From a virus: a stretch of 39,340 nt of DNA. Within the stretch, counting starts at the first letter, position 1. Every line of letters begins with the position of its first letter. The position numbers were made by a program, and so were the translations under genes. Shown piece after piece: positions 1 to 35,212 of the stretch. The notes below the pieces were generated by a model. It saw nothing but the letters and a program-made list of their open reading frames with translations. It did not search any database and was not told the origin of the DNA. The stretch covers positions 1-39,340 of IMG/VR virus record IMGVR_UViG_3300032820_000035; one strand, given 5' to 3'.

Positions 1-20
1 AAAAAGGAGTAAATAGTATT

Positions 21-1014: not shown

Positions 1015-1022
1015 GATAAATA
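1015..1022 (+). promoter_or_regulatory. T4-type late promoter box GATAAATA
   Basis: GATAAATA differs from the T4 late box TATAAATA only at the first base. If transcription starts about 6 nt downstream, as in T4, the leader is about 13 nt and carries GGAG in front of the ATG at 1041. Confidence 0.55.
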
Positions 1023-1040
1023 GTTTTATAGGAGAACACA

Positions 1041-20673: not shown

Positions 20674-20828
20674 TATTTTTTCTCTATTTTAGATTTTTCA
20701 TTTGTTTTTTTAGTTGCTGGTTCATAAAAAGTTCTAACTTTGCCCATATATTTTCGAGTAACTTTTTTAAGTCCAACGGCTTTTTCTGTGCCTGGTATAG
20801 GAATGCCCCATAATTCTCTAATCATCAT
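20673..20828 (-). CDS. Small basic protein (51 aa) between gp14 and gp15
   Basis: A short reading frame that fills the whole gap between gp14 and gp15. Its ATG overlaps the gp14 stop (TAATG at 20830-20826) and its TAA overlaps the gp15 ATG (TAATG at 20675-20671). The product begins MMIRELWGIPIPGTEKAVG, contains RKYMGKVRTFYEPATKK and ends in a lysine-rich tail. A second in-frame ATG lies one codon later. The double TAATG coupling and the lack of free space argue for a real gene. Function is unknown. A neck or tail-completion accessory peptide is inferred from position. Confidence 0.72.
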   Translation of the reverse strand: MMIRELWGIPIPGTEKAVGLKKVTRKYMGKVRTFYEPATKKTNEKSKIEKK

Positions 20829-21985
20829 TAATTGTCTGCCTTAGGTTTAAGTGCTTTAGATAAACTTTGTCTTTCAGTTACAGTTTCTCCACCTATTTGA
20901 TTAGTTGCTGTATTATTAATAAACGTACCTTTTTGTGTAGCTCTTGTGTCTGTATTAGTTAATGTCATTCTTACACCATCTTCCATTTTAACCCATCTAG
21001 TCTTATCAAATCTAAATAATCTATTTGGTAAAAAGTCTGTTCTTAAGAAATAATCACCTTTAATTGCACTTGTTGGAAAAGTAATTCCATGACCAAATAC
21101 TTCACCATTAGGTGCAATTCCATCACCTACTAAATAACCTTGATATCCTGATCTATCAGGTGTTTGATTAACTCTGTCTGCTAATTCGTTTTGTGTACTA
21201 GCATCTAATTCATTTGTATCAGTAGTAACAAGCTCAGTATTACCTTTAGCATCTGTTTGTAATGTGTATAAATGACTAGTTTCATATCCACTTTTTGTAG
21301 TATCAGCTTCTGCTTGAGCAACAACAGCCTCATTAATTTGCATTTCTTTTTCATATGTGGATAGTACATCTCTAAGTGTTTGACTTGATCCTTCTTGTGC
21401 AGGTAAATCAAGTATGCCTTTAAATTCTTGGCTGTCTACTATTTGTTTTAATTTTACTCTATATAAATGAGGATACCATGATACACTAAATCCTTCTGCC
21501 GCCCTGCTTATATCTTCTACTACATAGTATCTTTTTAATGCTAAATTAAAATCATTAAGGGCGTATTCGTCTTTTAAATGAGGTAATTCAAATACATCTC
21601 CCGGCATTATTTTTCGTCCTAACGTTTCTACAGAAGTTGATATAGGAATAGTCATAAACAATGTATCATTTTGTAAAAACAAACCAAACTGGCTCATATC
21701 AAAATCTATATCTGCTACATTGTATATTCCTCTTAATGTATAAACACTTGAATCGTATTTTCTATCACGATTTTCAAGAAATAACATATCTTGAATGTTA
21801 GTTTCTTTTACAGCATTATATCTAGGTTGTGTAGCTGTAGCTTCTTCTTCTTCAGGATTCCTTGGACCTAGGTATTTGTGTACAAATACATCAGTGCCCC
21901 CTACAGTAAACATCTCATTAACTGTTCTATCTAAGAAGGCGTAGTCCTGTCCTTTTTCCGGTTTATATAGACTTATTCTTGGCAT
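20828..21985 (-). CDS. 14: Neck protein gp14
   Basis: Head-tail connector neck protein of T4-like phages; together with gp13 it seals the packaged head. Visible features are an N-terminal segment (YAFLDRTVNEMFTVGG), a middle beta region (SQFGLFLQNDTLFMTIPIS), the gp14-type loop MPGDVFELPHLKDEYALNDF and a C-terminal extension with FPTSAIKGDYFLRTDFLPN, RLFRFDKTRWVKMEDG and a terminal SKALKPKADN. It is 385 aa against 256 in T4. Marine T4-like relatives also carry the extension, as far as I recall. It is the first gene of the minus-strand operon, diverging from gp13. A late box at 21999-21992 ends 6 nt before the ATG, so the transcript may be leaderless. Confidence 0.78.
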   Translation of the reverse strand: MPRISLYKPEKGQDYAFLDRTVNEMFTVGGTDVFVHKYLGPRNPEEEEATATQPRYNAVKETNIQDMLFLENRDRKYDSSVYTLRGIYNVADIDFDMSQFGLFLQNDTLFMTIPISTSVETLGRKIMPGDVFELPHLKDEYALNDFNLALKRYYVVEDISRAAEGFSVSWYPHLYRVKLKQIVDSQEFKGILDLPAQEGSSQTLRDVLSTYEKEMQINEAVVAQAEADTTKSGYETSHLYTLQTDAKGNTELVTTDTNELDASTQNELADRVNQTPDRSGYQGYLVGDGIAPNGEVFGHGITFPTSAIKGDYFLRTDFLPNRLFRFDKTRWVKMEDGVRMTLTNTDTRATQKGTFINNTATNQIGGETVTERQSLSKALKPKADN

Positions 21986-21991
21986 ACGTTA

Positions 21992-21999
21992 TATTTATT
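21992..21999 (-). promoter_or_regulatory. Late box AATAAATA 6 nt before gp14
   Basis: On the minus strand AATAAATA is followed by TAACGT and then the ATG of gp14. With a T4-like start about 6 nt after the box, the leader would be 0-1 nt. It stands back to back with the gp13 late box, 15 nt apart. Confidence 0.65.
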
Positions 22000-22014
22000 C
22001 TTAGGCAGGACGTT

Positions 22015-22022
22015 GATAAATA
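22015..22022 (+). promoter_or_regulatory. T4-type late promoter box GATAAATA before gp13
   Basis: Located 17 nt before the ATG at 22040. The predicted leader of about 12 nt contains AGAGAA as a weak Shine-Dalgarno. Confidence 0.6.
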
Positions 22023-22039
22023 TCTATAGAGAACATATT

Positions 22040-22798
22040 ATGGCAGATTTAGCAACACAAAAACAAGAAATATTCGACTACGTATACAATATGCTGGGCG
22101 GTGGCATGGTAGAAGTAGAGCTAGATCCAGCACATTATGAAACAGCTTTACAAGATTCATTTGACAGATTCCGTCAAAGAGCAGATAATTCAGTAGAAGA
22201 AAGCTATATGTTTCTTACAACGGTAATAGACCAAAATGCCTACACCTTAGCTAATGAAGTAATAGAAGTAAAAAAAATATATAGACGTTCAATTGGGTCA
22301 CGAACGGGTGGAGGAGATGGCGGTACATTATTTGAACCATTTAATTTAGCATATACAAACACATATCTTCTCGCTAGTACTAACATGGGAGGTTTAGCAA
22401 CTTATAATATGTTTGCACAATTCCAAGAACTTGTGGGAAGAATGTTTGGTAGCTTTATTGAATTTAAATGGAACACTACAACTAAAGAATTAACTCTCTT
22501 ACAACGACCTCGTTCAGACGAAGAATTACTATTATATTGTTACAATTTTCGTCCAGATTCCGAATTAATGAAAGATTACCTAGTCAAAGAATGGCTTAAA
22601 AGACATACCCTTGCATTATGCAAAATATCACTAGGCCAAGCAAGAGGCAAGTTTGCCACTATTGCTGGACCACAAGGAGGAGCCGCATTAAACGGTGATT
22701 CTTTAAAACAAGAAGGTCAAGCCGAACTTGAAAAACTTGATGAAGAACTAAAAACGCAAGTTGGTGGTGGTCAAGGGTATCATTTCACAATTGGTTAA
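22040..22798 (+). CDS. 13: Neck protein gp13
   Basis: Head-completion/neck protein that pairs with gp14. The 252-aa form starts MADLATQKQEIFDYVYNMLG and continues with VEVELDPAHYETALQDSFDR, VEESYMFLTTV, EVKKIYRR, MFAQFQELVGRMF and LKRHTLALCKISLGQARGKF, the pattern of T4-like gp13 helices. It ends in a glycine-rich tail (GGGQGYHFTIG). An in-frame ATG 27 nt upstream exists, but the region overlaps the late box, so the start at 22040 is preferred. The gene is transcribed away from gp14 and gp15, splitting the usual 13-14-15 cluster by inversion. Confidence 0.82.
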   Translation: MADLATQKQEIFDYVYNMLGGGMVEVELDPAHYETALQDSFDRFRQRADNSVEESYMFLTTVIDQNAYTLANEVIEVKKIYRRSIGSRTGGGDGGTLFEPFNLAYTNTYLLASTNMGGLATYNMFAQFQELVGRMFGSFIEFKWNTTTKELTLLQRPRSDEELLLYCYNFRPDSELMKDYLVKEWLKRHTLALCKISLGQARGKFATIAGPQGGAALNGDSLKQEGQAELEKLDEELKTQVGGGQGYHFTIG

Positions 22799-22807
22799 TA
22801 ATAACAT

Positions 22808-22836
22808 TTGACATTCGCATAAATTTCCGTTATACT
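22808..22836 (+). promoter_or_regulatory. Near-consensus sigma70 promoter ending 6 nt before dNMP kinase
   Basis: TTGACA at 22808-22813, a 17-nt spacer and TATACT at 22831-22836. The ATG of the dNMP kinase is at 22843, where transcription should start, and no Shine-Dalgarno precedes it. This suggests a leaderless, early-expressed mRNA. Confidence 0.8.
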
Positions 22837-22842
22837 TTATAA

Positions 22843-23436
22843 ATGATTATAGGTATTTGCGGTCTCATGGGTAGTGGAAAAGACACCATAGCCGATCATC
22901 TTATTCAAGAGCATCAATTTAAAAAAATATCATTCGCAGATAAATTAAAAGAATCTGTTGCTACAATGTTTGATTGGGATAGAACTATGCTTGACGGTCA
23001 AACAGATGAAAGTAGACAATGGCGAGAAAAACCAGATGAATATTGGTCTAAAGAAGTAGGCAAATCTATTACTCCAAGATTTGTATTACAAAAATTTGGT
23101 ACAGAATGTATGCGTGATAATTTTTATGACGGTATATGGGTTAGTATGACTAAAAAGAAAATTTTAGATAATCCTAATACTAACTGGGTTGTTCCTGATG
23201 TTAGATTTGAAAATGAAGTTAAAATGATTAAAAGTATCAATGGTCAAGTATGGTGGGTAAAAAGAGGTGAATTACCTACATGGTTTAGAGTTTATCAAGA
23301 CATAGGTGTAGAACCTAAAGATGTACATCCTAGTGAATGGTCTTGGGCAAAGGCTAATTTTGATAAAGTTTTAGATAATAATTCTACTATGGATAATCTT
23401 AAAAATCAGGTACAAGATCACCTTGTTTCCACTTAA
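22843..23436 (+). CDS. 1: Deoxynucleoside monophosphate kinase (T4 gp1-like)
   Basis: Phosphorylates dNMPs to supply DNA synthesis. The P-loop is GLMGSGKDT (7-15, K13). FKKISFADKLKESVATMF (26-43) fits the lid/acceptor helix of the dNMP-kinase family. Later blocks are FVLQKFGTECMRDNFYDGIW, NWVVPDVRFENEV, a Walker-B-like strand, and GQVWWVKRG near residue 137. The length of 197 aa is shorter than T4 gp1 (241 aa). It is preceded directly by a strong sigma70 promoter whose predicted start is the ATG itself, which fits an early gene inside a late region. Its last 38 nt are shared with the convergent HNH gene. Confidence 0.85.
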   Translation: MIIGICGLMGSGKDTIADHLIQEHQFKKISFADKLKESVATMFDWDRTMLDGQTDESRQWREKPDEYWSKEVGKSITPRFVLQKFGTECMRDNFYDGIWVSMTKKKILDNPNTNWVVPDVRFENEVKMIKSINGQVWWVKRGELPTWFRVYQDIGVEPKDVHPSEWSWAKANFDKVLDNNSTMDNLKNQVQDHLVST

Positions 23437-23740
23437 ATCCTTCTTTATGTAATGTTCTTTGACAGTTGGCGCATACTGTTTTAAGATTTTTAAAGTTACA
23501 ATTATTCATATGTCCATCAATATGAAACACATTAAATTGTATTGGGTACTCACTTTTATACCCACACTTGTCACATTTACTTTTCATACGATAACCAGCA
23601 TTATGCCATTTAGGCATACCATGATTGGCTCCACCATATCTAATACAAGCTTCGCATTTACTTCTATAAAAGATTATATCCTTCTTATGATAGTTAATTG
23701 CACATGGATACTTGTTACAAACTTTACATAAAGGTCTCAT
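23399..23740 (-). CDS. HNH endonuclease-like zinc protein
   Basis: A 113-aa protein with paired cysteines (CKVC at 5-8, CEAC, CDKC, CANC) that bind structural zinc, and an HNH-type core: FHIDGHMNNCNFKNLKTVC with His, His, Asn and the closing CANCQ. Related free-standing HNH proteins are common in marine T4-like phages, where some are homing nucleases. The gene is antisense to its neighbours and its 3' end overlaps the dNMP kinase coding region by 38 nt, consistent with a mobile gene dropped between gene 1 and gene 18. A late-like box GGTAAATA ends 6 nt before its ATG. Confidence 0.8.
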   Translation of the reverse strand: MRPLCKVCNKYPCAINYHKKDIIFYRSKCEACIRYGGANHGMPKWHNAGYRMKSKCDKCGYKSEYPIQFNVFHIDGHMNNCNFKNLKTVCANCQRTLHKEGFKWKQGDLVPDF

Positions 23741-23746
23741 ATAGCT

Positions 23747-23754
23747 TATTTACC
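23747..23754 (-). promoter_or_regulatory. Late-like box GGTAAATA 6 nt before the HNH gene
   Basis: On the minus strand GGTAAATA is followed by AGCTAT and the ATG. The only Shine-Dalgarno-like sequence (AGGGCAGG) lies on the upstream side of the box and would not be in the transcript. A perfect TATAAT also occurs further upstream (23789-23784), without a good -35. Confidence 0.45.
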
Positions 23755-23810
23755 TGCCCTTTTCTGGCCCTTTTCATTTAGTAATTATAACCTGTCTTTT
23801 ATGTAATAAG

Positions 23811-23818
23811 CATAAATA
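23811..23818 (+). promoter_or_regulatory. Late box CATAAATA upstream of gp18
   Basis: Located 36 nt before the ATG of the sheath gene. The predicted 31-nt leader carries a good Shine-Dalgarno, AGGAG at 23842-23846, 8 nt before the ATG. Confidence 0.6.
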
Positions 23819-23854
23819 ACGTTAACAAAGGAATTATAAGCAGGAGATTATAAA

Positions 23855-26800
23855 ATGGCATTAGTTTCACCAGGAGTACAAGTAAGCGTAATAGACGAAA
23901 GTTTCTATACACCGGCCGAACCAGGCACGGTGCCAATGATATTCGTTGCATCAGCACAAGATAAAACATCAAGTTCAGGAACAGGAACAGCATCAGGCAC
24001 AACAGCCGCAAATGCTGGTAAAGTTAATCTAATTACTTCTCAAAGAGAGTTAGCAGAAACATTTGGTGATCCTACATTTACTAAAGATGGTAATAATAAT
24101 CCTATACATGGTGGTGAACTTAATGAATGGGGACTACAAGCGGCTTACTCTTATTTAGGTGTAGCCAACAGAGCTTATGTTGTTAGAGCGGCAGTTGATA
24201 CTGGAGAATTAAATGCTTCTGCAACAACACCAGCGGCTAACCCTCCATCAGGAACTTATTGGCTAGATACTGCTAATACAGAATGGGGAGTATTTGTTTG
24301 GAATGGTAATGCGTCAACTACTACAGGTGGACAAACATTTACAAAACATGATCCAATAGTTATAACTGACAAAACAAATTGCGTAGGAGGTGTTGCAGGT
24401 GCAGTACCTAAAACTTCAATAGGAGCAGTTGGTGATTATGCCATTAATGCTACTACTACGTATAACGATTTATATTTTAAAAAGCATGATGGAACTTGGC
24501 AAAAAGTTGCTTCTGCAGGATGGAAACAAAGTAATCCTGCTATAATTGGTGCAACATCAAATCCAACTATTACTAATGGTAAGACTATGACTCTTAATGG
24601 TAATAATGTTACTGCTTCAGGAACTACTTTAGATGCTTTAGTTACAGAAATAAACACTAATAATCCACACGCAGGTATTAAAGCTAAAAATCTTGATAAC
24701 AAATTAGCAATTTATTCAGACGGTTCTCAAGCTGGTCCTTTAGATACTAAAGTGACAATTGTAGACGGTACAGGACTAATGGCAGAAGTAGGAATTACTG
24801 CTTCAACTGGTGATGGTTATAAAATACCAGCATACAATACTTCTACTCACACTAACGTTCCAGCATTTAAAGGAACTCTAGGTAATGATGGAATGGCGTC
24901 AGGCGCTATTTGGCTTAAAACAACTAGTCCAAATTTAGGTGCAAATTGGAAAGTTAAGAAATTTAATGATACTACTAAACTTTGGGAAGACGTAAGTGCT
25001 TCATTATACTCTAGCAATGAATCTGCATTATATAGTTTAGATTTATCTGGAGGAGGAGTAAATCTTCCAGTTGGTACATTATACGTTAATACAGTAAATG
25101 GTCAAACTGGCGAAGCTGATTTTAAACTTTTCAGACGAGCAAACACAGGTTCAACAACAATTACATCAAGTGCAATAGCAACACAATTAACAGCGGCTAC
25201 ATATGCAGTTACTATAGAAGAATCAATAGTAGGAGCAGAAGCTCTTGCTTCTAAGACTTTTAGTGTAACAACTACTGCGGCAACTACTGATGCTGATGTA
25301 TTAGCAGGCGAAATTAATAACGCAAGTTTTACAAATGTTAGTGCTAGTGTTGATACACTTAACAGAGTTGTAATAACTCACAATGATGGTGGAGAAATTA
25401 AAATTACTGACACAGATGGATTAATAGCTCTAGCAGGAATAACACAAGATTCAACTAACGTAACATATGAACCAGGTATAGATCCAGCTAGTCCTCCTAC
25501 TCCTAGAGTATATAGAGGATCTAATTGGGGAGCATTAACACATAATTCTTCTTCAACAGCTCCTACTTCACTTGCAACAGATGGACAACTTTGGTATTCA
25601 TCTATTGTTGACCAAGCAGATATTATGGAACATACAGGTGCTAAATGGGATGGTTATTTAACTGTAAATGCAAACACAGATCCAGCAGGACCACAAGTTT
25701 CTGCTACAGCACCAACTACACAATCAGATGCTACAGCTCTTGTAGATAGAGATTTATGGATTGATTCAAGTGATTTAGAAAACTATCCTAAAATTTCTAG
25801 ATGGAATGCAAGTACATTAAAATGGGTAGCAGTAGATAATTCAGATCAAACAACAGAAGATGGTATTGTATTTGCAGATAGTAGATCAAGTACAGCAGGC
25901 GCAGATGAAACAGATGCTACAATTGTTGCTTTACTAACTAGCGATTTTGTAGATACAGATGCACCAGATCCAGCATTATATCCAAAAGGAACTTTACTTT
26001 TCAATACACGTAGAAGTGGATTTAATGTTAAGAAATTTGCAAGAAATCATGTAGACACTACAGCTAACAATCTTAGAATGGGTAGTGCATCTATGAGTGG
26101 TTATTATGCTCACAGATGGGTTACAGAATCAGCTAATAATTCAGATGGTTCAGGTTCATTTGGACGAAGATCACAAAGAAAAGTTGTTGTACAATCACTT
26201 CAAGCATTGGTTAATGCTAATCAAGAAATTAGAGATGATGAATCAAGAATATTCAACGTAGTTGCTTGTCCTGGTTATCCAGAACTAATAGGTGAATTGG
26301 TTAGTCTTAATAATGACAGAAACTTGTCAGCATTTATAGTTGGTGATTCACCAATGAGATTAACATCAGATGCAACGTCATTAAACAACTGGGCAACTAA
26401 CGTTAGTTCAGCAACTGAAGACAATGACAATGGTCTTGTAACTAACGACGATTATCTTGGAGTGTTTTATCCATCAGGATTTACAAGTGATAATTTTGGT
26501 AACAACGTTGTTGTTCCACCAAGTCACATGATGCTTAGAACAATTGCTTTAAGTGATCAAGTTTCATTTCCATGGTTTGCTCCAGCAGGTACAAGACGAG
26601 GAGGAATTACAAACGCTAGTTCAACTGGATATATAGATTCAGAAGGAGAATTTGTAAGTTCTCCATTAAATGAAGGTCAAAGAGACACTTTATATTCTAG
26701 CAATGTTAATCCACTTACTTTTATAACAGGTGCTGGTTTAGTTAATTATGGACAAAAAACTAGAGCAGGTGGTACTTCATCTTTAGACAGAATTAACGTA

Positions 26801-27103
26801 TCAAGATTAGTAATTTACTTAAGAAGTCAATTAAACAAATTGGCTAGACCTTTTGTATTTGAACCTAATGATAAAATTACAAGAGATGAAATAAAAGCAC
26901 AGGCAGATAGCTTATTACTTGAATTAGTAGGTAACAGAGCATTATATGACTTCTTAGTAGTGTGTGATGAATCAAATAACACACCTTCAAGAATTGACAG
27001 AAACGAACTATATTTAGATATAGCAATTGAACCAGTAAAAGCAATAGAATTTATATACATTCCATTGAGACTTAAAAATACTGGCGAAATAGCTGGTTTA
27101 TAA
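23855..27103 (+). CDS. 18: Tail sheath protein gp18 with large surface insertion
   Basis: Forms the contractile sheath. The N-terminal handshake region begins MALVSPGVQVSVIDESFYTP and includes NLITSQRELAETFGDPTF and YLGVANRAYVVRAAVD. The C-terminal core (from about 711) has TLLFNTRRSGFNVKKF, DSPMRLTSD, FPWFAPAGTRRGGI, LVNYGQKTRAG, RINVSRLVIYLRSQL and the sheath signature at the end (DIAIEPVKAIEFIYIPLRL). At 1082 aa it is far longer than T4 gp18 (659 aa). The extra material, about residues 130-700, holds repeated W-rich modules and two modules resembling each other (see repeat entry). These would project from the sheath surface, as insertion domains do in other sheath proteins. It is followed by gp19 as in T4. 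Confidence 0.93.
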   Translation: MALVSPGVQVSVIDESFYTPAEPGTVPMIFVASAQDKTSSSGTGTASGTTAANAGKVNLITSQRELAETFGDPTFTKDGNNNPIHGGELNEWGLQAAYSYLGVANRAYVVRAAVDTGELNASATTPAANPPSGTYWLDTANTEWGVFVWNGNASTTTGGQTFTKHDPIVITDKTNCVGGVAGAVPKTSIGAVGDYAINATTTYNDLYFKKHDGTWQKVASAGWKQSNPAIIGATSNPTITNGKTMTLNGNNVTASGTTLDALVTEINTNNPHAGIKAKNLDNKLAIYSDGSQAGPLDTKVTIVDGTGLMAEVGITASTGDGYKIPAYNTSTHTNVPAFKGTLGNDGMASGAIWLKTTSPNLGANWKVKKFNDTTKLWEDVSASLYSSNESALYSLDLSGGGVNLPVGTLYVNTVNGQTGEADFKLFRRANTGSTTITSSAIATQLTAATYAVTIEESIVGAEALASKTFSVTTTAATTDADVLAGEINNASFTNVSASVDTLNRVVITHNDGGEIKITDTDGLIALAGITQDSTNVTYEPGIDPASPPTPRVYRGSNWGALTHNSSSTAPTSLATDGQLWYSSIVDQADIMEHTGAKWDGYLTVNANTDPAGPQVSATAPTTQSDATALVDRDLWIDSSDLENYPKISRWNASTLKWVAVDNSDQTTEDGIVFADSRSSTAGADETDATIVALLTSDFVDTDAPDPALYPKGTLLFNTRRSGFNVKKFARNHVDTTANNLRMGSASMSGYYAHRWVTESANNSDGSGSFGRRSQRKVVVQSLQALVNANQEIRDDESRIFNVVACPGYPELIGELVSLNNDRNLSAFIVGDSPMRLTSDATSLNNWATNVSSATEDNDNGLVTNDDYLGVFYPSGFTSDNFGNNVVVPPSHMMLRTIALSDQVSFPWFAPAGTRRGGITNASSTGYIDSEGEFVSSPLNEGQRDTLYSSNVNPLTFITGAGLVNYGQKTRAGGTSSLDRINVSRLVIYLRSQLNKLARPFVFEPNDKITRDEIKAQADSLLLELVGNRALYDFLVVCDESNNTPSRIDRNELYLDIAIEPVKAIEFIYIPLRLKNTGEIAGL
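24250..25840 (+). repeat. Modular insertion in the sheath protein
   Basis: W-rich beta modules recur near residues 132 (TYWLDTANTEWGVFVWNG), 351 (AIWLKTT...KLWEDV), 577 (GQLWYSS...KWDGYL) and 633 (RDLWIDSS...LKWVAV). Two further modules resemble each other: TTLDALVTEINTNN...LAIYSDGS (about 250) and TDADVLAGEINNAS...VVITHNDG (about 480), a D-x-L-x-x-E-I-N pattern followed by a beta strand. They are diverged protein repeats within one gene. Confidence 0.65.
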
Positions 27104-27106
27104 TAG

Positions 27107-27114
27107 GATAAATA
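27107..27114 (+). promoter_or_regulatory. T4-type late box GATAAATA before gp19
   Basis: Located 19 nt before the gp19 ATG. The predicted transcript would start at about 27120, immediately before GGAG (27122-27125), leaving an SD-led leader of about 14 nt. Confidence 0.6.
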
Positions 27115-27133
27115 TTAATAGGAGATTATAAAA

Positions 27134-27760
27134 ATGAGTATATCAACATTATCAAAGATTACAGTACCTTTGAGTTCTAATCAAAGTTCTAGTAACCAAG
27201 GCCTATTAATGCCTAAGTTACAATATCGTTTTAGAGTAACTTTAGAAAACTTTGGTGTATCTACTCCTACTACTGAACTTACTAAACAAGTTCAGGATGT
27301 GATGAGACCTAATTTAAGTTTTGAAAAAACAACTATTGATGTTTATAATTCAAAAGTATATCTTGCAGGTAAGCATACTTGGGAGCCAATTACTTTAACA
27401 TTAAGAGAAGATGTTGCAAACAATGTTCAAAAATTAGTAGGCGAACAATTGCAGAAACAATTCGATTTCTTCGAACAATCTGCGGCGGCATCTGGAGCAG
27501 ATTACAAATTTGTAACTAGAATTGAAATAACAGATGGAGCTAACGGAGCCAATGTAGTTAATGTTTTAGAAACATGGGAATTATATGGTTGTTATCTTGA
27601 TTCTGCAAATTACAATACTTTAGCATATAACACTAGCGAACCAGTAACTGTAACACTTTCTATTGTATACGACAATGCTATACAAACACCACAAGGTTCA
27701 GGTGTAGGAACATCTGTAGGAAGAACAGTAAACACTTTAATTACTGGTGGCGGCGCATAA
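27134..27760 (+). CDS. 19: Tail tube protein gp19
   Basis: Builds the inner tail tube under the sheath. The 208-aa sequence shows the tube fold pattern: LQYRFRVTLENFG (29-41), VQDVMRPNLSFEKTTIDVYN, the strand-loop AGKHTWEPITLTLRED, a helix region (VGEQLQKQFDFFEQSAAA) and closing strands WELYGCYLDSANYN and EPVTVTLSIVYDNAIQ. T4 gp19 is 163 aa; the extra length is at the N-terminus and in a Gly-rich C-terminal tail. It lies directly after gp18, is preceded by a late box and a GGAG, and is followed by a strong terminator, which fits a very highly expressed gene. Confidence 0.93.
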   Translation: MSISTLSKITVPLSSNQSSSNQGLLMPKLQYRFRVTLENFGVSTPTTELTKQVQDVMRPNLSFEKTTIDVYNSKVYLAGKHTWEPITLTLREDVANNVQKLVGEQLQKQFDFFEQSAAASGADYKFVTRIEITDGANGANVVNVLETWELYGCYLDSANYNTLAYNTSEPVTVTLSIVYDNAIQTPQGSGVGTSVGRTVNTLITGGGA

Positions 27761-27787
27761 TAACAAAATTTAAAATTCCACTAATAG

Positions 27788-27812
27788 AGGAGGCGCTAAG
27801 GCGCCTTTTTTA
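27788..27812 (+). terminator. Rho-independent terminator after gp19
   Basis: A 6-bp GC stem AGGCGC/GCGCCT with loop TAAG (27791-27806) is followed by a run of six T (27806-27811). It lies between gp19 and the next late promoter at 27836. Confidence 0.9.
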
Positions 27813-27835
27813 TTCTCTACCCTGTTTTTCTACTC

Positions 27836-27843
27836 GATAAATA
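27836..27843 (+). promoter_or_regulatory. Late box GATAAATA 6 nt before the tube-like gene
   Basis: GATAAATA, then CTGTAT, then the ATG at 27850. The 17-nt stretch differs by a single base from the one before the gene at 33149. No Shine-Dalgarno is possible between box and ATG. Confidence 0.7.
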
Positions 27844-27849
27844 CTGTAT

Positions 27850-28998
27850 ATGGCAAACTTACTAAACGGATTTTTAGATAACTTAAAAAGTGGTATATTA
27901 GGACCTAAAGGTAATTTAGGTGACTTTGCTCATGCGGCTAGACTGTATGTAGATGACAGTTTTAGACTTGCTCCAAAGAGTAAATTTTTATATCACGTAA
28001 CATTTAACATTAATGATAGTGCTGGTATAACTGATCCACCCTTAACAAATCATAAACATGAATTGAATATGTTAGTAAAACAGGTTGACTTACCTAAATA
28101 TACAATTGATGTGGATATGGTTCAAGCATATAATAAGAAAAGAAAAATTCAAAAAAGAATTCAATATGATCCAGTAGCTATTTCATTTCATGATGACAAT
28201 TATGGAGTAACTACTGCACTATGGGAATGTTATTATAGATATTACTTTAAAGACGGTAACTATGGAGACACAATGACAGATGGTTCTCCTGATATGACAT
28301 CACCACCTGCATATAAAAAACCTTATAATAGAGGATTAACATATATGTCGTCTGAAATGAACAAATTTAATTTTGGATTAGACAATAATAGTCTTGCTCC
28401 ATTTTTTCACAGTATTCAAATTTATCAAATGGCTAGAAAAACATATACTTGTTACACATTAGTTAACCCTATAATTTCTGGTTGGGAACATGATTCACTT
28501 TCTAATGAAGACACAGGTCCAGTACAAAATCGAATGAGAGTAGAATATGAAGCAGTATTTTATAGTCGGGGTCCAGTAAGTCAAGGTAAGGCACCTAAAA
28601 CTTTTGCCGATCCTGCTCATTATGATAGAACTCCAAGTCCTAATTCATTAAGTGGTGGTGGTACAACAAGTGTATTTGGAACTGGTGGTATATTAGATGG
28701 TTTATTTGGTGGAGGAGGTTCAGGACCTAATACTTACATAGGCAGTCAAGGAGGTAAGAGAGGAAAAATGACCTTAGGATCTATCATTAGGACTGCTAAT
28801 AGAATTAGAAATTTGAAAAAATTAAGTAAAGATGGTTTAAGACAAGAAGGATTTAATATATTAGTAGGAGCAATTGGTAAAATAGGACAAACGGCAGATG
28901 CTTCTAAAGGTGTTGCAAATACACATCTTGGAAAATCTATTAATAGTGTTAGAAGTGGAGTAGTAAAAGCAATCCAAAAAACAAACAAACTCATATAG
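27850..28998 (+). CDS. Tube-like baseplate protein (gp48/gp54- or gp19-type)
   Basis: A 382-aa tail protein. The first 240 residues show tube-fold blocks: KSKFLYHVTFNIN (about 39-51), MLVKQVDLPKYTIDVDMVQAY, RIQYDPVAISFHDDN and, later, TYTCYTLVNPIISGWEHDSL and MRVEYEAVFYSRG. KQVDLPKY...YDPVAISFHDD is the arrangement seen in tail-tube and tube-initiator proteins of contractile tails. The C-terminal 130 residues are Gly-rich, then basic (KRGKMTLGSIIRTANRIRNL). It follows gp19 but is separated by a terminator and has its own late box. Which T4 protein it replaces (gp48 or gp54) cannot be decided by eye. The predicted mRNA is leaderless. Confidence 0.65.
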   Translation: MANLLNGFLDNLKSGILGPKGNLGDFAHAARLYVDDSFRLAPKSKFLYHVTFNINDSAGITDPPLTNHKHELNMLVKQVDLPKYTIDVDMVQAYNKKRKIQKRIQYDPVAISFHDDNYGVTTALWECYYRYYFKDGNYGDTMTDGSPDMTSPPAYKKPYNRGLTYMSSEMNKFNFGLDNNSLAPFFHSIQIYQMARKTYTCYTLVNPIISGWEHDSLSNEDTGPVQNRMRVEYEAVFYSRGPVSQGKAPKTFADPAHYDRTPSPNSLSGGGTTSVFGTGGILDGLFGGGGSGPNTYIGSQGGKRGKMTLGSIIRTANRIRNLKKLSKDGLRQEGFNILVGAIGKIGQTADASKGVANTHLGKSINSVRSGVVKAIQKTNKLI

Positions 28999-29007
28999 GA
29001 TAAATTT

Positions 29008-29382
29008 ATGGCATTACCTAATACAAACATACCAAATGAATCTAAAGACAGTTCAGCACCTGTTAAAGAATTTTTTAATAAATTTTTTACTGATCCTATA
29101 AATTTTCCTAGCAACCAAGTAGATGCAGTTGTTGGATTTTTTGAATCTAGAGGCTTTGATAAAGTTGCTAGTAGAAGTACTGCAACAGTTTTATTACAAC
29201 AAGCTAAATTAGATGGTGTTAATGTTTTTGAATTAGTTGACACATTAAAAGGTGTAGAATCTGCTAAACTCAGTTTTATGGTTACTGAAATTCTTAATCA
29301 TAATAGATCAAAAATATCAACGTTAGGTTATAAAATTACAAACCCAAACGAGTCTACTGAAAAAAGAAATATAGTGGTGTAA
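29008..29382 (+). CDS. Hypothetical helical structural-type protein, 124 aa
   Basis: No named function recognised. A small, mostly helical protein: VKEFFNKFFTDPINFPSNQV (19-38), ATVLLQQAKLDGVNVFELVD, TLKGVESAKLSFMVTEILN, then TLGYKITNPNESTEKRNIVV at the C-terminus. It sits between the tube-like protein and gp4, with ATAGGA 8 nt before the ATG. I recall similar proteins in marine T4-like phages at this location, so a virion-assembly role is likely but unverified. Confidence 0.7.
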   Translation: MALPNTNIPNESKDSSAPVKEFFNKFFTDPINFPSNQVDAVVGFFESRGFDKVASRSTATVLLQQAKLDGVNVFELVDTLKGVESAKLSFMVTEILNHNRSKISTLGYKITNPNESTEKRNIVV

Positions 29383-29386
29383 GTCC

Positions 29387-29824
29387 ATGAAACGTTATAT
29401 TAATGGTAGATTCAATCCAAAGAATCCTAGCAAATACATAGGTAATAGATCACCTTTATATAGATCAAGTTGGGAATTTGCTTTCATGAGATTTTGTGAT
29501 GAAAGTCCTAGTATTAGCAAATGGGCCAATGAAGCAATTAAGATACCTTACAAACATCCTTTCACAGGAAAATTTTCAATATATGTTCCTGATTTTTTTA
29601 TAGCATATACAGATAAAGCAGGTAAAAGTCATGCAGAAGTTGTAGAAATTAAACCAGAAAATCAAACTAGAAAAGAAAAATTAGGTGAAAGCAAAGCTAA
29701 CAAAATACAATATGTTATTAATCAAGCTAAATGGAATTCCGCTATGGCTTGGTGTAAAAATAAAGGTTTTAAATTTAGAGTAGTAAATGAAAAAGACCTT
29801 TTCCATACTGGAAGACGCGGTTAA
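29387..29824 (+). CDS. 4: Head completion nuclease gp4
   Basis: T4 gp4 (also called gp50) stabilises the filled head and has a TnsA/restriction-endonuclease-like fold. Visible are YIGNRSPLYRSSWEFAFMRF (17-36) with the first acidic residue, then IYVPDFFIAY and VVEIKPENQTRKEK, giving the E...PD...ExK metal-binding triad of this fold. The length (145 aa) is close to T4 gp4 (150 aa). It is 4 nt downstream of the preceding gene, so it is probably translated by coupling. It ends shortly before gp16. Confidence 0.87.
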   Translation: MKRYINGRFNPKNPSKYIGNRSPLYRSSWEFAFMRFCDESPSISKWANEAIKIPYKHPFTGKFSIYVPDFFIAYTDKAGKSHAEVVEIKPENQTRKEKLGESKANKIQYVINQAKWNSAMAWCKNKGFKFRVVNEKDLFHTGRRG

Positions 29825-29831
29825 AATTCTA

Positions 29832-29839
29832 AATAAATA
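29832..29839 (+). promoter_or_regulatory. Late box AATAAATA before gp16
   Basis: Located 14 nt before the ATG. The predicted leader is about 9 nt and has no Shine-Dalgarno. Confidence 0.5.
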
Positions 29840-29853
29840 TAGTAGTATATAAT

Positions 29854-30360
29854 ATGACTAAAAAATTAGAAGAACTTTTAAACTTACCTGAATCTCAATC
29901 CATAGTAGATGAAGATAAAGCCAATGAGAAACAGGCTAAAGTTAAAGCAGAAGCAGAAAAAGAACAAATAACTACCAAAAGAGATATAGCAGAACTAGAC
30001 AAAATAACTGCCGCTTTACCTAGAGTAGACGGATTAGGTTCATTAGGTGATACAGAATTAAATGATATTAGTTCTAAAGCCATAGATGCATATGAAGATT
30101 TAATGGATTTAGGTATGAACGTAGAAAGTAGGTACTCTTCTAGAGTGTTTGAAGTAGCAGGACAAATGCTCAAAACAGCCCTTGATTCCAAGGTAGCTAA
30201 AATAGACAAGAAGCTTAAAATGGTCGATTTACAGTTAAAGAAACAAAAACAAGACTCTAAACAAGGTACAGAAGACACTTCTAGCATAGTACAGGGCGAA
30301 GGATATGTTATATCTGACCGTAATAGTTTATTAGAGAAACTTAGAAAACTGGATAAATAA
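29854..30360 (+). CDS. 16: Small terminase subunit gp16
   Basis: Recognises and presents DNA to the large terminase. The 168-aa product has a charged N-terminal region (DEDKANEKQAKVKAEAEKEQ, coiled-coil-like), a central helical pair (DAYEDLMDLGMNVESRYSSR and VFEVAGQMLKTALDSKVAKI) and KKLKMVDLQLKKQKQ. The VFEVAGQMLKTA-KIDKKLKM block is the pattern seen in T4-like gp16. It lies two genes before gp17. The last codons (GAT AAA TAA) double as the late box of the following gene. Confidence 0.8.
   Translation: MTKKLEELLNLPESQSIVDEDKANEKQAKVKAEAEKEQITTKRDIAELDKITAALPRVDGLGSLGDTELNDISSKAIDAYEDLMDLGMNVESRYSSRVFEVAGQMLKTALDSKVAKIDKKLKMVDLQLKKQKQDSKQGTEDTSSIVQGEGYVISDRNSLLEKLRKLDK
30352..30359 (+). promoter_or_regulatory. 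Late box GATAAATA embedded in the gp16 stop, 6 nt before the next ATG
   Basis: The box covers the final codons of gp16 and part of its TAA. It is followed by ATACGT and the ATG at 30366, predicting a leader of 0-1 nt. Confidence 0.65.
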
Positions 30361-30365
30361 TACGT

Positions 30366-30914
30366 ATGCAAATAGATTTTAAAAAATATATAGCAGAAAG
30401 TAAAAAAACTTACAATTTTAAAGTAGGTTTAGCAGGTATGTTAGCAGATGATACTGGTGATAGACTTGAATCTTTAATGCAAAAATTTAGTGTAGTTAAC
30501 ATGAGTAACGGTAAAAAAACACCTATTCAAAAGAAAGCATTAGATTTCCCTGCATTAGAAAATACAGAAGTTACATATTTTGACATTGAAGTTGAATATC
30601 CAACAACTACTTCTGTCCTTGAGCAATACTTAAAAGATTCATTAGGACTACCTGCTAATCATGTAGTAGTTAGAAAACCTGGTGATCCTTTAGTTGCTAT
30701 ACAAGAAGAACCTAAAGCAAATGGAGATAAGAAAGCAAATTTAGAAAGTGACTATCCTAAAAGTGATTCTGCCGCAACAAAAACAGCAGGAGATTCAAGA
30801 GTAATGGAACTACTTAAAGAATTAGAAAAAGTTAGAAAAGATAGAGATGCACCTGATGCCGCTAAAGATGTTAAAGTTAATCCAGAAGGCAATAAAGGAA
30901 TAATGGAGAAATAA
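30366..30914 (+). CDS. Unknown protein between terminase subunits, 182 aa
   Basis: Not recognised as a named family. The N-terminal 110 residues form a compact alpha/beta pattern: KKTYNFKVGLAGMLADD (13-29), SLMQKFSVVNMSNGKKTPIQ, LDFPALENTEVTYFDIEVEY, and VLEQYLKDSLGLPANHVVVR. The remainder is charged and probably disordered (QEEPKANGDKKANLESD, VRKDRDAPDAAKD). I recall relatives in marine phages without function, often near packaging genes. A head or packaging role is inferred from its place between gp16 and gp17. A late box ends 6 nt before its ATG. It ends 2 nt before the next gene. Confidence 0.72.
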   Translation: MQIDFKKYIAESKKTYNFKVGLAGMLADDTGDRLESLMQKFSVVNMSNGKKTPIQKKALDFPALENTEVTYFDIEVEYPTTTSVLEQYLKDSLGLPANHVVVRKPGDPLVAIQEEPKANGDKKANLESDYPKSDSAATKTAGDSRVMELLKELEKVRKDRDAPDAAKDVKVNPEGNKGIMEK

Positions 30915-30916
30915 AA

Positions 30917-31495
30917 ATGGATATTAGTGATTTTAATATTAGAAAACATATAGAAAAGATAGACAAGATTCAAACTAAAGAACAGTTGAAAGAAGAAGCC
31001 GACAAAGCAAATATAAAAGAAGCGGCTCAAATTTCTATTGCTGGCGACTCTGCAGACGAAGTTAATAACTTAATGCAAATTTTTAGAAATGCAGGTGTAC
31101 AAGCTCCAGCTTCTATGTCACCTTGCGGAACAGAAGTTACACCAGACATGATTAATCAAGAACCAAAAGCTGATGAACCAGAAACTGGTGATGAAACATT
31201 AGATAAAATTTTAAGTCCTGAAGATGAACTAGCTTCAGAAGAAACTAAAGACGAAGTACCTGGTCAAGCAAGTACTACACCTGATCCTAAATATCAAGAT
31301 GCACAATATATGACAAAAGATATTGCAGGTGGTATTAATAAAGCTAAAAAAACATATCCTAAAGTATCAGATGGTGATAATCCAATGGCAGTCAAAGAAA
31401 GACTTATTTCGGAATACCAAATGTTTAAAAATAAAACAGAACCTCGTGGAACTGTAGTTACTGACGATATGATTAATCAAAAATCAACGAAATAG
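30917..31495 (+). CDS. Unknown acidic protein upstream of gp17, 192 aa
   Basis: No function recognised. Strongly acidic and mostly disordered-looking in the middle (PKADEPETGDETLDKILSPE). A conserved-looking core is QISIAGDSADEVNNLMQIFRNAGVQ (about 38-62). The phrases TEVTPDMINQE and TVVTDDMINQK occur near residues 72 and 182 as a short internal repeat. It begins 2 nt after the preceding gene and ATGGAGAAATAAAA provides a GGAG for its ATG. Together with its neighbour it forms a two-gene insert between small and large terminase. Confidence 0.72.
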   Translation: MDISDFNIRKHIEKIDKIQTKEQLKEEADKANIKEAAQISIAGDSADEVNNLMQIFRNAGVQAPASMSPCGTEVTPDMINQEPKADEPETGDETLDKILSPEDELASEETKDEVPGQASTTPDPKYQDAQYMTKDIAGGINKAKKTYPKVSDGDNPMAVKERLISEYQMFKNKTEPRGTVVTDDMINQKSTK

Positions 31496-31530
31496 ACCCC
31501 CGAATATAATATTTCCTCCCCATAATCCAC

Positions 31531-31538
31531 AATAAATA
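31531..31538 (+). promoter_or_regulatory. Late box AATAAATA 5 nt before gp17
   Basis: AATAAATA, then CTGTT, then the ATG at 31544. A start 6 nt past the box would be the A of ATG itself. The CTG immediately after the box is shared with two other leaderless-type sites. Confidence 0.7.
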
Positions 31539-31543
31539 CTGTT

Positions 31544-33136
31544 ATGACAATGAGAAGTTTGGACGGTGTGTTAACTAAAAAGGCACATTTAAAAGAAAAA
31601 TATACAGAAGAACAATTAAATGATGTCACTAAATGTGCAGATCATGACTTAGGATATAAAGTTTTTGCTAACAATTTCTTTTATATTCAACATCCTGTAA
31701 GAGGTAAATTATTATTCCAGCCTTTTGAATATCAAGACAAACTATTACAAAGTTATCATTTACATAGATTTAATGTTAATATGTTACCTCGACAATGTGG
31801 AAAAACTACTTCAGCCGCTTGTTATCTATTGTGGTATGCAATGTTTCATCCTGATCAAGTAATATTAATTGCCGCACATAAATTTGCAGGTGCTCAAGAA
31901 ATTATGCAACGTATCCGTTATGCATATGAATTATGTCCAGATCATATTAGAGCAGGGGTAATAAATTATAATAAAGGGTCAATGGAATTTGATAATGGTA
32001 GTAGAATAGTAAGCACAACTACAACTACAAACACTGGAAGAGGTATGGCAATTTCATTATTATATTGTGATGAGTTTGCTTTCGTAAATGCAGGAATAGC
32101 CAGAGAATTTTGGACTTCAATTTCTCCAACATTAGCAACAGGAGGTAAAGCAATAGTTACATCAACACCTAACTCTGATGAAGATGTATTTGCAACATTA
32201 TGGAAACAATCTCAAGACAAATTCGATGAAAATGGTAATGAATCAGAATTAGGTTCTAATGGTTTTTATGGTTTTACTGCTGGATGGGATGAACATCCTG
32301 AACGAGATGAAGTTTGGAAACAACAAGAATTAAGTAGAATAGGTGAAGAAAGATTTAGACGAGAGTACGGTTGCGAATTTTTAGTTTATGAAGAAACTTT
32401 AATTAATAGTATTTTCTTATCAACGTTAGAAGGTAAACAGCCAATATTTAATATGGGGCAAACACGTTGGTATGAAAAAATTAATAAAGAAAGCACTTAT
32501 GTAATAGCATTAGATCCTGCAATGGGTACTGGTGGAGATAATGCCGCCATTCAAGTTTTTGAATTACCATCCTATAACCAAGTTGCAGAATGGAAACATA
32601 ATACAACTGCTATACCACAACAAATTAGAATTCTAAAAGACATAGCAAATTATATTAAAGATGAATCAGAAAATCCTAATGGTTCAAATATATATTGGAG
32701 TGTAGAAAATAATACAATAGGCGAGTCAGCATTATTAGTAATTCAAGACTTTGGTGAAGATTCTATACCAGGTATGCTTGTAAACGAACCTATTAGAAAA
32801 GGTCATATTAGAAGATTTAGAAAAGGATTTAATACAACTCATAAAACTAAAGTTGTTGCCTGTGCAAGATTAAAATCAATGATTGAAAGAGGTAAGATGA
32901 AAATTAATAGTAAGCCTCTAGTTAGTGAACTCAAATCATTTATAGCATCTGGTGTTACTTACAGAGCTAAAACAGGTGAGCATGATGACCTAGTTAGTGC
33001 ATCATTATTAGCTATGAGAGTTATTCAAGTACTAAAAGATTGGGATCCTAAAATATATACGTCTTTCAGTCAAGCAGATGAAGATACTACAGAGAGGGTT
33101 ATACCACTACCAATTTTTGTTAGCCACGTTAATTGA
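31544..33136 (+). CDS. 17: Large terminase subunit gp17
   Basis: DNA-packaging motor ATPase and headful nuclease. The Walker A region is LPRQCGKTTSA (81-91, K87), followed by VILIAAHKFAGAQEIMQRI, NKGSMEFDNGSRI and the Walker B strand ISLLYCDEFAFVN. The coupling motif STPNS comes next. The C-terminal RNase-H-like nuclease domain shows VIALDPAMGTGGDNAAIQVF (first catalytic Asp), YWSVENNTIGES and EHDDLVSASLLAM (last acidic pair). At 530 aa it is shorter than T4 gp17 (610 aa), but all active-site elements are there. A third-codon ATG gives an alternative start (31550). The upstream late box predicts a leaderless mRNA. Confidence 0.95.
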   Translation: MTMRSLDGVLTKKAHLKEKYTEEQLNDVTKCADHDLGYKVFANNFFYIQHPVRGKLLFQPFEYQDKLLQSYHLHRFNVNMLPRQCGKTTSAACYLLWYAMFHPDQVILIAAHKFAGAQEIMQRIRYAYELCPDHIRAGVINYNKGSMEFDNGSRIVSTTTTTNTGRGMAISLLYCDEFAFVNAGIAREFWTSISPTLATGGKAIVTSTPNSDEDVFATLWKQSQDKFDENGNESELGSNGFYGFTAGWDEHPERDEVWKQQELSRIGEERFRREYGCEFLVYEETLINSIFLSTLEGKQPIFNMGQTRWYEKINKESTYVIALDPAMGTGGDNAAIQVFELPSYNQVAEWKHNTTAIPQQIRILKDIANYIKDESENPNGSNIYWSVENNTIGESALLVIQDFGEDSIPGMLVNEPIRKGHIRRFRKGFNTTHKTKVVACARLKSMIERGKMKINSKPLVSELKSFIASGVTYRAKTGEHDDLVSASLLAMRVIQVLKDWDPKIYTSFSQADEDTTERVIPLPIFVSHVN

Positions 33137-33142
33137 TAAATA
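33135..33142 (+). promoter_or_regulatory. Late box GATAAATA 6 nt before the 687-aa gene
   Basis: GATAAATA overlaps the stop region of gp17, followed by CTGCAT and the ATG at 33149. It is nearly identical to the site at 27836. Confidence 0.7.
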
Positions 33143-33148
33143 CTGCAT

Positions 33149-35212
33149 ATGAACACAGAAGCAATAGCAAACGATTTATTCAACAAAGTTAGAGGTCGAT
33201 TCCCTGCTGTTACGTTAGGGGATAAAGAAGGCAATGTGACTAATGAACCTACACAGGCCCGTTATTTTGACTTTGATTTTAAGGAGGCAGGAAAATCGTT
33301 AGGAAAGGTAAGTATTAGTATAGACGAGAAAGATGGTCTTGTAATACTACATAATACGGATTTTATAGAAAATTCCGACGAGGTAGTAAAGCATAAATGG
33401 TTTGAATTTCTTAAAGAATTAAGAAATTTTGCTAAAGCTAGAATGCTTAATTTTGATACAAGAGATATTACAAAAAGTAATCTAGAAAAAAGAGATTATG
33501 ATTATTTGAGTAAATCTCGTAAAGAAGAAGGAGAAAGTGTGAGCGAATCTAATATATACGGAACAACAAAAACTAGTTTTCAACCTATTGGAAAAGCACG
33601 TTTAGTTATTAAACATTCTGCCCCAGTAGACATGACAGTTGCTGGTGGAAGATCTCACAGAATAGAATCTATATTCATAGAAAGCCCTACAGGAGAAAGA
33701 TTTAGATATCCTCTTAAACATCTTAATGGTGCTAGAGCAATGGCACAACATATTTCCAATGGTGGAGTTCCTTATGATGACTTTGGAAAACATATTTCAG
33801 GATTAAGTGAAGAACTTAATCAACTTAAAAAATTTAAATCTTATATAAATCGTTCAGCTGTAATGGCAGAAGGACTTTCAGGCTATCTAAGTATTGTAGA
33901 TGAAAGAATAGAAGAAGTTAAAAATTCCTGCCAAAAATTACAAAGAAGTTCTTATTATAATAACGCTGTTAAAGACTTTGTAGCAAGACAATACGAAGAA
34001 GTACCAGAAGAACTTAAACAAAATTGGATAGACGAATTAACAATTAAAACTTTTAAAGAAGAATTAGAAGATGTATTTCCTTACATATACAAACTAATAG
34101 GTGAGAAAACAAAAACTCAAGAAGTTACAGCAGAAGATTTTGAAGAAGCAGGATATCAAGGAGAAGTAGAACCACATATGCATCAATTTGATTTATCAGG
34201 TGACTTTGATCAAGAAAGAGGTGTATCAGATATTGACGCACAACAAATTCAAAAACAATTAGCAGATTCAGGTATTACAGCAGAAGTTCATACAGACGAA
34301 ATGAATTTTAAAGGTGTTCATATTCACACAATGTCATCTAGAGAAGAAGTAGAGAAAGCATTAGGTGACATAGTAGAACGTATTGGCGGTATAGAAGATT
34401 TTGAAAAAATAATGAGTACTATTGTAGGTGAAGCAGAAAATGGTTTATTTTCATCTGATCCAACAGAAGCCAAACAAGCATTAGTAAAATTAAACAATTT
34501 AATGGGACGACATTTTCCTGCAGGAGTAAATGGTGTTAATGGTGTAGAAAGTTTACAAGGCGTTATAGATGACAAAGAACTAAACGACCAAATAGTTTCA
34601 ATGGGTAGAGAAGATAGTGATGCCTGCATTAGAGGAACAATATTAAATTATATCAAAGACAAAAGACCAGACATGGCTAATAGTATTAATACAGGTGATA
34701 TGGAACCAGAAGAAACATTGACTTGGGAAAATATTAAACCTTATGTATCTGTACAAAGAGATGATAAAAATAAAGTTCAATATCATGTATTAGACAAAGA
34801 TGAAAAAGATATATTTGTAACACATGATTCTAAAGAAGCAACACAATTTTTAAGAAAAAATTGGAAAGATTTAAGACAAGGTACAGCAAAACCAGAAATG
34901 CCAGCGGGTTGGGAAGATGACGATAAAGGTGTTGCTGTTATGAAAGGCCCAGATGGCAAAATTAGTTTAGAACCAAAAACTGATGAACCAGAAGAAGAAC
35001 CAAAAGAAGATCCAAAAAATTTAGATGAATATATAAAAAGCTTCTTTGATTATACAACTAATAGTTTTCCAAAAGGAGAAACAGGTCTTTTGACATCAGT
35101 GCAAAAGAAATTTGGTGATGAACACGTAAGAAATGCTGAAGCTATAATCCAAAAATTAATGTTGGGCAAAGATAAAGAAATTAATAGAATAAAAAAATTA
35201 GCCGGCGTATAA
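33149..35212 (+). CDS. Unknown large protein, 687 aa
   Basis: No named function recognised. The N-terminal half is alpha/beta: QARYFDFDFKEAGKSLGKVS (36-55), then SNIYGTTKTSFQPIGKARLV (about 134-153) and SHRIESIFIESPTGERFRYP (about 169-188) with LNGARAMAQHISNGGVPY. The middle and C-terminal parts are acidic and helical with likely linkers (DEPEEEPKEDPKNLDEYIKS). It has no membrane segment. It lies between gp17 and gp32, at the border between late and early blocks, with a late box ending 6 nt before its ATG, which favours a late, possibly structural, protein. I recall long proteins with the same SxxYGxxKxSxQ...R...GARAMA pattern in marine phages, all of unknown function. Confidence 0.75.
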   Translation: MNTEAIANDLFNKVRGRFPAVTLGDKEGNVTNEPTQARYFDFDFKEAGKSLGKVSISIDEKDGLVILHNTDFIENSDEVVKHKWFEFLKELRNFAKARMLNFDTRDITKSNLEKRDYDYLSKSRKEEGESVSESNIYGTTKTSFQPIGKARLVIKHSAPVDMTVAGGRSHRIESIFIESPTGERFRYPLKHLNGARAMAQHISNGGVPYDDFGKHISGLSEELNQLKKFKSYINRSAVMAEGLSGYLSIVDERIEEVKNSCQKLQRSSYYNNAVKDFVARQYEEVPEELKQNWIDELTIKTFKEELEDVFPYIYKLIGEKTKTQEVTAEDFEEAGYQGEVEPHMHQFDLSGDFDQERGVSDIDAQQIQKQLADSGITAEVHTDEMNFKGVHIHTMSSREEVEKALGDIVERIGGIEDFEKIMSTIVGEAENGLFSSDPTEAKQALVKLNNLMGRHFPAGVNGVNGVESLQGVIDDKELNDQIVSMGREDSDACIRGTILNYIKDKRPDMANSINTGDMEPEETLTWENIKPYVSVQRDDKNKVQYHVLDKDEKDIFVTHDSKEATQFLRKNWKDLRQGTAKPEMPAGWEDDDKGVAVMKGPDGKISLEPKTDEPEEEPKEDPKNLDEYIKSFFDYTTNSFPKGETGLLTSVQKKFGDEHVRNAEAIIQKLMLGKDKEINRIKKLAGV

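Follow-up and report, generated by a model that had tools for sequence, protein, structure and literature searches.

Late promoter boxes beside the start codon and a candidate class of leaderless late mRNAs in marine T4-like phages

The cI mRNA of phage lambda is leaderless and starts at its AUG. In the Thermus phage phiYS40, most middle and late mRNAs are leaderless (PMC3594737), and in cellular genomes a comparable arrangement is recognised from the promoter, either as the "-10 motif adjacent to ORF" (open reading frame) of Deinococcus-Thermus (PMC12340547), or as "TA-led" genes, for which the spacing from promoter to start is a standard rule of leaderless inference in bacteria (PMC3160421). 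The T4 late promoter, in turn, is an 8-bp box which spans positions -13 to -6 (PMC2988020). The present report concerns boxes of this type in the IMG/VR record IMGVR_UViG_3300032820_000035, analysed over its complete length of 39,340 nt (the window), a fragment of a T4-like myovirus genome whose large terminase (gp17) is approximately 53% identical to that of the jumbo phage PA5oct, the closest cultured gp17 relative. In seven genes of the window, a T4-type late box, [GA]RTAAATA, ends 5-6 nt before the ATG, and these close boxes are very probably late promoters fused to the start codon, which would define a lineage-specific late regulon of leaderless mRNAs. A preliminary description of this DNA took leaderless phage mRNAs to be known only for single genes such as cI, a view which the case of phiYS40 contradicts, and no paper joining leaderless mRNA to T4-type late promoters was found in the open-access literature.

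Close boxes in the window and in its relatives

The spacer is counted here as the nucleotides that separate the final A of TAAATA from the ATG, and the TAAATA core is invariant only because it was searched as such. The RRTAAATA boxes precede structural and packaging genes, often with G or A at -13, and the distance from the start of the box to the ATG, 11-12 nt, is that of the -10-type element in leaderless TA-led genes. The genes are:

8..989 (ORF 21-989), plus strand: 322-aa gene, phrog_4205; ATG 21; box AGTAAATA at 8-15 (TAAATA 10-15); 5-nt spacer GTATT
20828..21999, minus strand: gp14-like neck/virion protein, divergent from gp13; ATG 21985; box AATAAATA at 21999-21992; 6-nt spacer TAACGT
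23399..23754, minus strand: HNH endonuclease, a lone minus-strand gene; ATG 23740; box GGTAAATA at 23754-23747; 6-nt spacer AGCTAT
27836..28998, plus strand: 382-aa tail-tube-like gene; ATG 27850; box GATAAATA at 27836-27843; 6-nt spacer CTGTAT
30352..30914, plus strand: 182-aa virion structural protein; ATG 30366; box GATAAATA at 30352-30359; 6-nt spacer ATACGT
31531..33136, plus strand: gp17 large terminase; ATG 31544; box AATAAATA at 31531-31538; 5-nt spacer CTGTT
33135..35212, plus strand: 687-aa virion structural protein; ATG 33149; box GATAAATA at 33135-33142; 6-nt spacer CTGCAT

Six of these genes had been listed in the preliminary description, and all six boxes are where it placed them; the 322-aa gene is a seventh, which was overlooked. 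Altogether, 18 boxes of the window lie 0-40 nt before a candidate ATG, and seven of these have a distance of 5-6 nt, for which uniform placement gives a binomial P of 1.3e-5. Given that this value comes from a small sample and was prompted by the same data, the real test is provided by the relatives, which comprise around 950 kb, plus independent isolates.

A scan of the relatives had been proposed in the preliminary description, with a sharp peak expected at 5-6 nt, and this peak, rather than a flat distribution, is what was obtained. Among 80 marine contigs related to the window through gp17 (the window clade), the box is found 5 nt from the ATG in 62 cases and 6 nt from it in 56, vs 4.4 per other distance. 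As the genes were called mechanically and the ATGs sought only in the first quarter of each ORF, a few of the counted ATGs may not be starts, a weakness of which the ortholog alignments presented below are free. In 44 contigs with a gp17 close to that of the SAR11 phage Mosig, 21 boxes were found at 5 nt and none at 6 nt (vs a background of 2.2), while 36 more distant relatives of the Mosig gp17 have 17 and two, respectively (vs 2.8), and the cultured SAR11 myophages peak at exactly 5 nt, with 10 boxes in HTVC008M and six in Mosig.

No peak at 5-6 nt was found in T4 (no close boxes), Syn9 (none), PA5oct (one), 121Q (one, at 6 nt), Atu_ph07 (one), Phosso (two), Cr30 (none), or phiM12 (none), nor in the cyanomyophages or the T-evens. 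In the Syn9-related cyanomyophage contigs (80; 776 kb), a single box lies at 5 nt and none at 6 nt, with the boxes 16-40 nt out, and the T-even contigs (33; 680 kb) have two boxes at 5 nt and two at 6 nt, with a mode near 29-30 nt. P-SSM2 has four boxes at 5 nt among 260 genes, most being found at 20-25 nt, and in PA5oct, neither gp17 nor the tube-like gene nor the genes that follow have a close box. The comparison shows, at the level of sequence, that the close spacing is confined to certain marine T4-like lineages.

The same signal emerges when every hexamer is scanned at every distance of 0-40 nt upstream of genes. Among all pairs of hexamer and distance in this unbiased scan, that of TAAATA and 5 nt ranks top in the window clade (40 vs 5.5 expected), above all of the Shine-Dalgarno words, and second in HTVC008M and Mosig (16 vs 1.4 expected); where the controls have strong signals, it is Shine-Dalgarno words that rank top. 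The strongest positional hexamer in HTVC008M and Mosig is TATATT directly before the ATG (14 vs 0.8 expected), which apparently belongs to an AAAGG-type Shine-Dalgarno context.

When orthologs are aligned at the first Met, the spacing proves to be conserved gene by gene. The box lies at 5-8 nt in all 11 gp14-like orthologs, which lack a Shine-Dalgarno, at 4-7 nt in all 18 HNH orthologs, at 5-8 nt in 38/38 orthologs of the 687-aa gene, and at 5-6 nt in 29 of the 30 tube-like orthologs, the exception (L075) having its box at 19 nt together with a gained AGGAG. Of the 35 gp17 orthologs, 15 have TAAATA at a distance of 5-8 nt, and the remaining 20 have TAAGTA, always at 6 nt. Other families are divided: the 322-aa gene has the box at 5-6 nt in 4/13 orthologs, and the 182-aa orthologs include 16 with the box at 5-7 nt and no Shine-Dalgarno, and 18 with the box at 11-26 nt, eight of which have a Shine-Dalgarno. 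In the 192-aa family, the box lies at 5 nt in 16 members and is absent from 12, 11 of which carry a Shine-Dalgarno-like word. Leadered families, on the other hand, stay leadered, with close boxes in 0/17 sheath and 0/22 tube genes and a Shine-Dalgarno in 17/17 and 22/22, and the early-type genes gp32 and uvsX all lack a close box and carry a Shine-Dalgarno (53/53).

Some further observations concern the box itself. In a sub-clade among the gp17 orthologs L016-L055, TAAGTA replaces TAAATA with a constant 6-nt spacer in 20/20 members, and this constancy before gp17 makes the variant gene-specific. Many marine T4-like contigs (L427, L429, L431-L433, L437, and similar ones) encode, on the strand opposite gp17, a conserved 99-aa protein (MNEHYEKYKETIKKV...) whose box lies at exactly 5-6 nt, and in the T-even contigs L552 and L572, a 227-aa protein (MITNTLFEIPITNRN / MITNTHFVVPITNRN) has a late box 5-6 nt before its ATG, which could be an isolated case of a leaderless late gene in coliphages. 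TAAATA is also depleted in the window, with 39 copies vs about 100 expected (around 40%), as if selection had acted against stray late promoters.

Start-codon signatures and the predicted transcription start

In the same phages, sheath, tube, and other genes form a second late class, in which the box lies at least 12 nt from the ATG and would give rise to an mRNA with a Shine-Dalgarno leader. Its members in the window are:

1015..1697, plus strand: 218-aa gene; box at 1017-1022, 18 nt before ATG 1041; with AGGAGA
22015..22798, plus strand: gp13 head-tail adaptor; box at 22017-22022, 17 nt before the likely ATG 22040
23811..27103, plus strand: tail sheath; box at 23813-23818, 36 nt before ATG 23855; with AGGAG
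27107..27760, plus strand: tail tube; box at 27109-27114, 19 nt before ATG 27134; with AGGAG

These distances (18, 17, 36, and 19 nt) bear out the contrast drawn in the preliminary description between the close-box genes and the genes at 1041, gp13, gp18, and gp19, for which leaders of 12-31 nt are predicted, mostly with a Shine-Dalgarno. The start of gp13 is very likely ATG 22040 and not TTG 22013, where the mechanically called ORF begins, an ORF within which the late box falls.

As the T4 box occupies -13 to -6, a 5-nt spacer would set position +1 on the A of the AUG. For a 6-nt spacer, +1 is predicted to fall within a base or two of this A, with a leader of 0-2 nt, and for spacers of 7-8 nt the predicted leader is up to 3 nt. 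The bases around the predicted start are consistent with this placement. Bacterial RNA polymerase usually prefers a pyrimidine at -1 and a purine at +1. In the leadered promoters, a purine occupies the sixth base past the box in 81% of cases in the clade and in 80% in T4, the strongest purine preference of that stretch, and in the close-box class this sixth base is the A of the ATG. A pyrimidine stands at -1 of the ATG in 94% of the close-box genes vs 43% of the leadered ones. Shine-Dalgarno sequences, predicted to be missing from the close-box genes in the preliminary description, are indeed scarce, being found in 8% of these genes vs 66% of the leadered genes. At 5-6 nt, the starts comprise 145 ATGs and two GTGs or TTGs, which agrees with leaderless initiation, given that non-AUG codons are poor for this type of initiation in many bacteria (PMC9031893).

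As the relatives are not independent, the signatures were recounted per gene family. In the clade, a pyrimidine at -1 is found in 21/23 close vs 20/42 leadered families (P = 4e-4) and a Shine-Dalgarno in 1/23 vs 29/42 (P = 2e-7), and the respective values for the SAR11-type phages are 23/26 vs 17/32 (P = 0.005) and 1/26 vs 28/32 (P = 6e-11). The folding of the first 45 nt of the mRNA did not separate the close-box and leadered classes among the genes of the window. The preliminary description had also proposed an extended signal on the basis of two recurring spacer types (CTGYAT and WWACGT), of which only a part stands: across the relatives, the constrained spacer positions are the pyrimidine at -1, mostly T, the A at -2 for 6-nt spacers, and, for 5-nt spacers, TA at box positions +2 and +3. 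The close boxes share the preferred G or A at box -2 with the boxes of the leadered genes.

The mechanism that these signatures point to would begin with the recognition of the box by the phage gp55 sigma-like factor on the host RNA polymerase. Transcription would then start 6 nt past the box, on the A of the AUG where the spacer has 5 nt or within one or two bases of it where the spacer has 6 nt, which would produce a class of late mRNA with no 5' leader. Translation would have to begin at the 5'-terminal AUG with no Shine-Dalgarno to guide the ribosome, which presumably enters as a 70S particle. Homologs of gp55 are encoded in the relatives G001-G004, HTVC008M, and Mosig, and gp33 and gp45 are annotated in Mosig.

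Upstream transcripts and competing explanations

A serious rival, to which we give appreciable but minority weight, is that the box yields leaderless late mRNA while read-through from upstream adds a leadered version of some genes, so that leaderless translation would account for only part of the output. Same-strand runs would allow this for the 182-aa, 322-aa, and gp17 genes of the window and for the 192-aa genes, and GGAG or AAGG precedes the box in some orthologs, although most genes of the class lack any Shine-Dalgarno. This mixture is inapplicable, moreover, to three genes for which a longer upstream transcript is an unlikely source of a leader. The gp14-like gene diverges from gp13, with 54 nt between the start codons, and HNH is a lone minus-strand gene flanked by plus-strand genes; within 154 nt upstream, no further box exists in any of the 11 gp14-like orthologs, and one exists in only 1/17 HNH orthologs. 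The tube-like gene is shielded by a terminator:

27785..27812, plus strand: terminator hairpin GAGGAGGCGC-TAAG-GCGCCTTTTTT, fold -16.7 kcal/mol; its end lies some 37 nt upstream of the tube-like ATG

Among the relatives, 22/28 have a terminator-like hairpin whose end is 40-46 nt from the ATG of the tube-like gene, vs 0/28 shuffles, and in 7/35 a hairpin of this type ends approximately 20 nt upstream of gp17.

It is far less probable that the box works in RNA, as an AU-rich site for the ribosome or for a repressor (a RegA operator, for instance) in longer transcripts that upstream promoters produce. RegA sites are indeed AU-rich and overlap start regions (PMC3014915), and some of the genes follow another same-strand gene at a short distance, but the lone or divergent HNH and gp14-like genes, with almost no other box upstream, and the terminator before the tube-like gene speak against such transcripts. 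The same promoter box, including its preferred G or A at -2, sits 12-37 nt out in the leadered genes, and an RNA site would leave the T4-exact 5-nt spacing and the purine at box +6 unexplained. Least credible of all is that the ATGs after the box are mis-called and that the true starts lie downstream, with their own Shine-Dalgarno, on ordinarily leadered mRNAs, since, even though the ORF starts were assigned mechanically, the ortholog alignments begin at the same Met down to around 45% identity, with the box moving along, ATG outnumbers GTG and TTG by 145:2 at the close distance, and the cyanomyophage and T-even controls, called in the same way, have no peak.

Late promoters fused to the start codon thus remain the favoured interpretation, and the proposal of the preliminary description that the mRNAs begin at or near the ATG is supported by the peak, the choice of ATG, the pyrimidine at -1, the scarcity of Shine-Dalgarno sequences, the purine at +6, and the upstream terminators. 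Some points weigh against it. The use of the box by gp55, the exact +1, and the leaderless translation are all inferred from sequence, and the gp55 gene was not found on the window fragment, which has only 39 kb. AAGG or GGAG just before the box, which a read-through transcript could use, occurs in a few genes of the class, including many 192-aa-type orthologs and the 322-aa gene, where GGAG stands directly before the box, i.e., upstream of the predicted +1. The spacer of some orthologs has 7-8 nt, from which leaders of 2-3 nt would result, and in 400 kb of one SAR11 single-cell genome there was no clear -10 box peak before the ATG, together with a weak Shine-Dalgarno peak.

Immediately upstream of the HNH late box (23753-23785, minus strand) lies a direct repeat with the pattern AAAAGGG(N5-7)AAAGGGCAGG, which is kept in most orthologs and could be an operator or the recognition site of the HNH enzyme; I-TevI, by comparison, autorepresses at its late promoter.

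Hosts, significance, and comparison with known systems

A SAR11 host is established for HTVC008M and Mosig only. The absence of the close spacing from the T-evens and cyanomyophages suggests a host-linked trait. Two candidate links were rejected. The first is the phage-encoded ribosomal protein bS21, which HTVC008M and Mosig have, but which is shared by leadered phages (PA5oct, Atu_ph07, Phosso, and a Vibrio phage) and of which the clade contigs yielded no copy. The second is an alphaproteobacterial host as such, given that the Caulobacter phage Cr30 and the Sinorhizobium phage phiM12 have no peak. It is conceivable, but rather doubtful, that the leaderless class (terminase, neck, certain tail and virion proteins, and HNH) is translated by an initiation route differing from that of the Shine-Dalgarno class, the latter including sheath and tube, which would make late genes tunable through changes in the ribosome or initiation factors in the course of infecting SAR11-type hosts.

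In the SAR11 myophages, a published prediction of late promoters reportedly failed (PMC7029224), and boxes touching the ATG may help to explain this failure. T4 late transcription is a textbook system, and its marine relatives are among the common viruses of the ocean. The arrangement predicts exact 5' ends for dozens of genes and corrects start-codon calls, and HTVC008M or Mosig on Pelagibacter HTCC1062 offers a cultured system for the predicted leaderless translation of major structural genes.

Lambda cI differs from the close-box class in being a single regulatory gene, rather than a set of structural and packaging genes. The phage phiYS40 resembles the marine phages in that a whole temporal class of its mRNAs lacks leaders, but it is an unrelated phage of an unrelated host, without T4-type late boxes, and in its system IF2 goes up and IF3 goes down (PMC3594737). 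The Deinococcus-Thermus and TA-led genes share a promoter element approximately 10-12 nt before the start, the lack of a Shine-Dalgarno, and a leaderless status deduced from the spacing; they are cellular genes with a housekeeping sigma, whereas the marine phages have the box of a phage-specific late sigma. Finally, the T4 late promoters (gp55/gp33/gp45, TATAAATA) have in common with the close boxes the core box, the lack of any other conserved flank, the purine 6 nt after the box, and gp55, homologs of which occur in the relatives. Position -13, by contrast, is mostly G or A in the marine clade and T in the T4 late promoters, and in T4, the T-evens, and the cyanomyophages the box lies around 16-40 nt before the ATG, with Shine-Dalgarno leaders, while in the marine lineages it stands beside the start codon.

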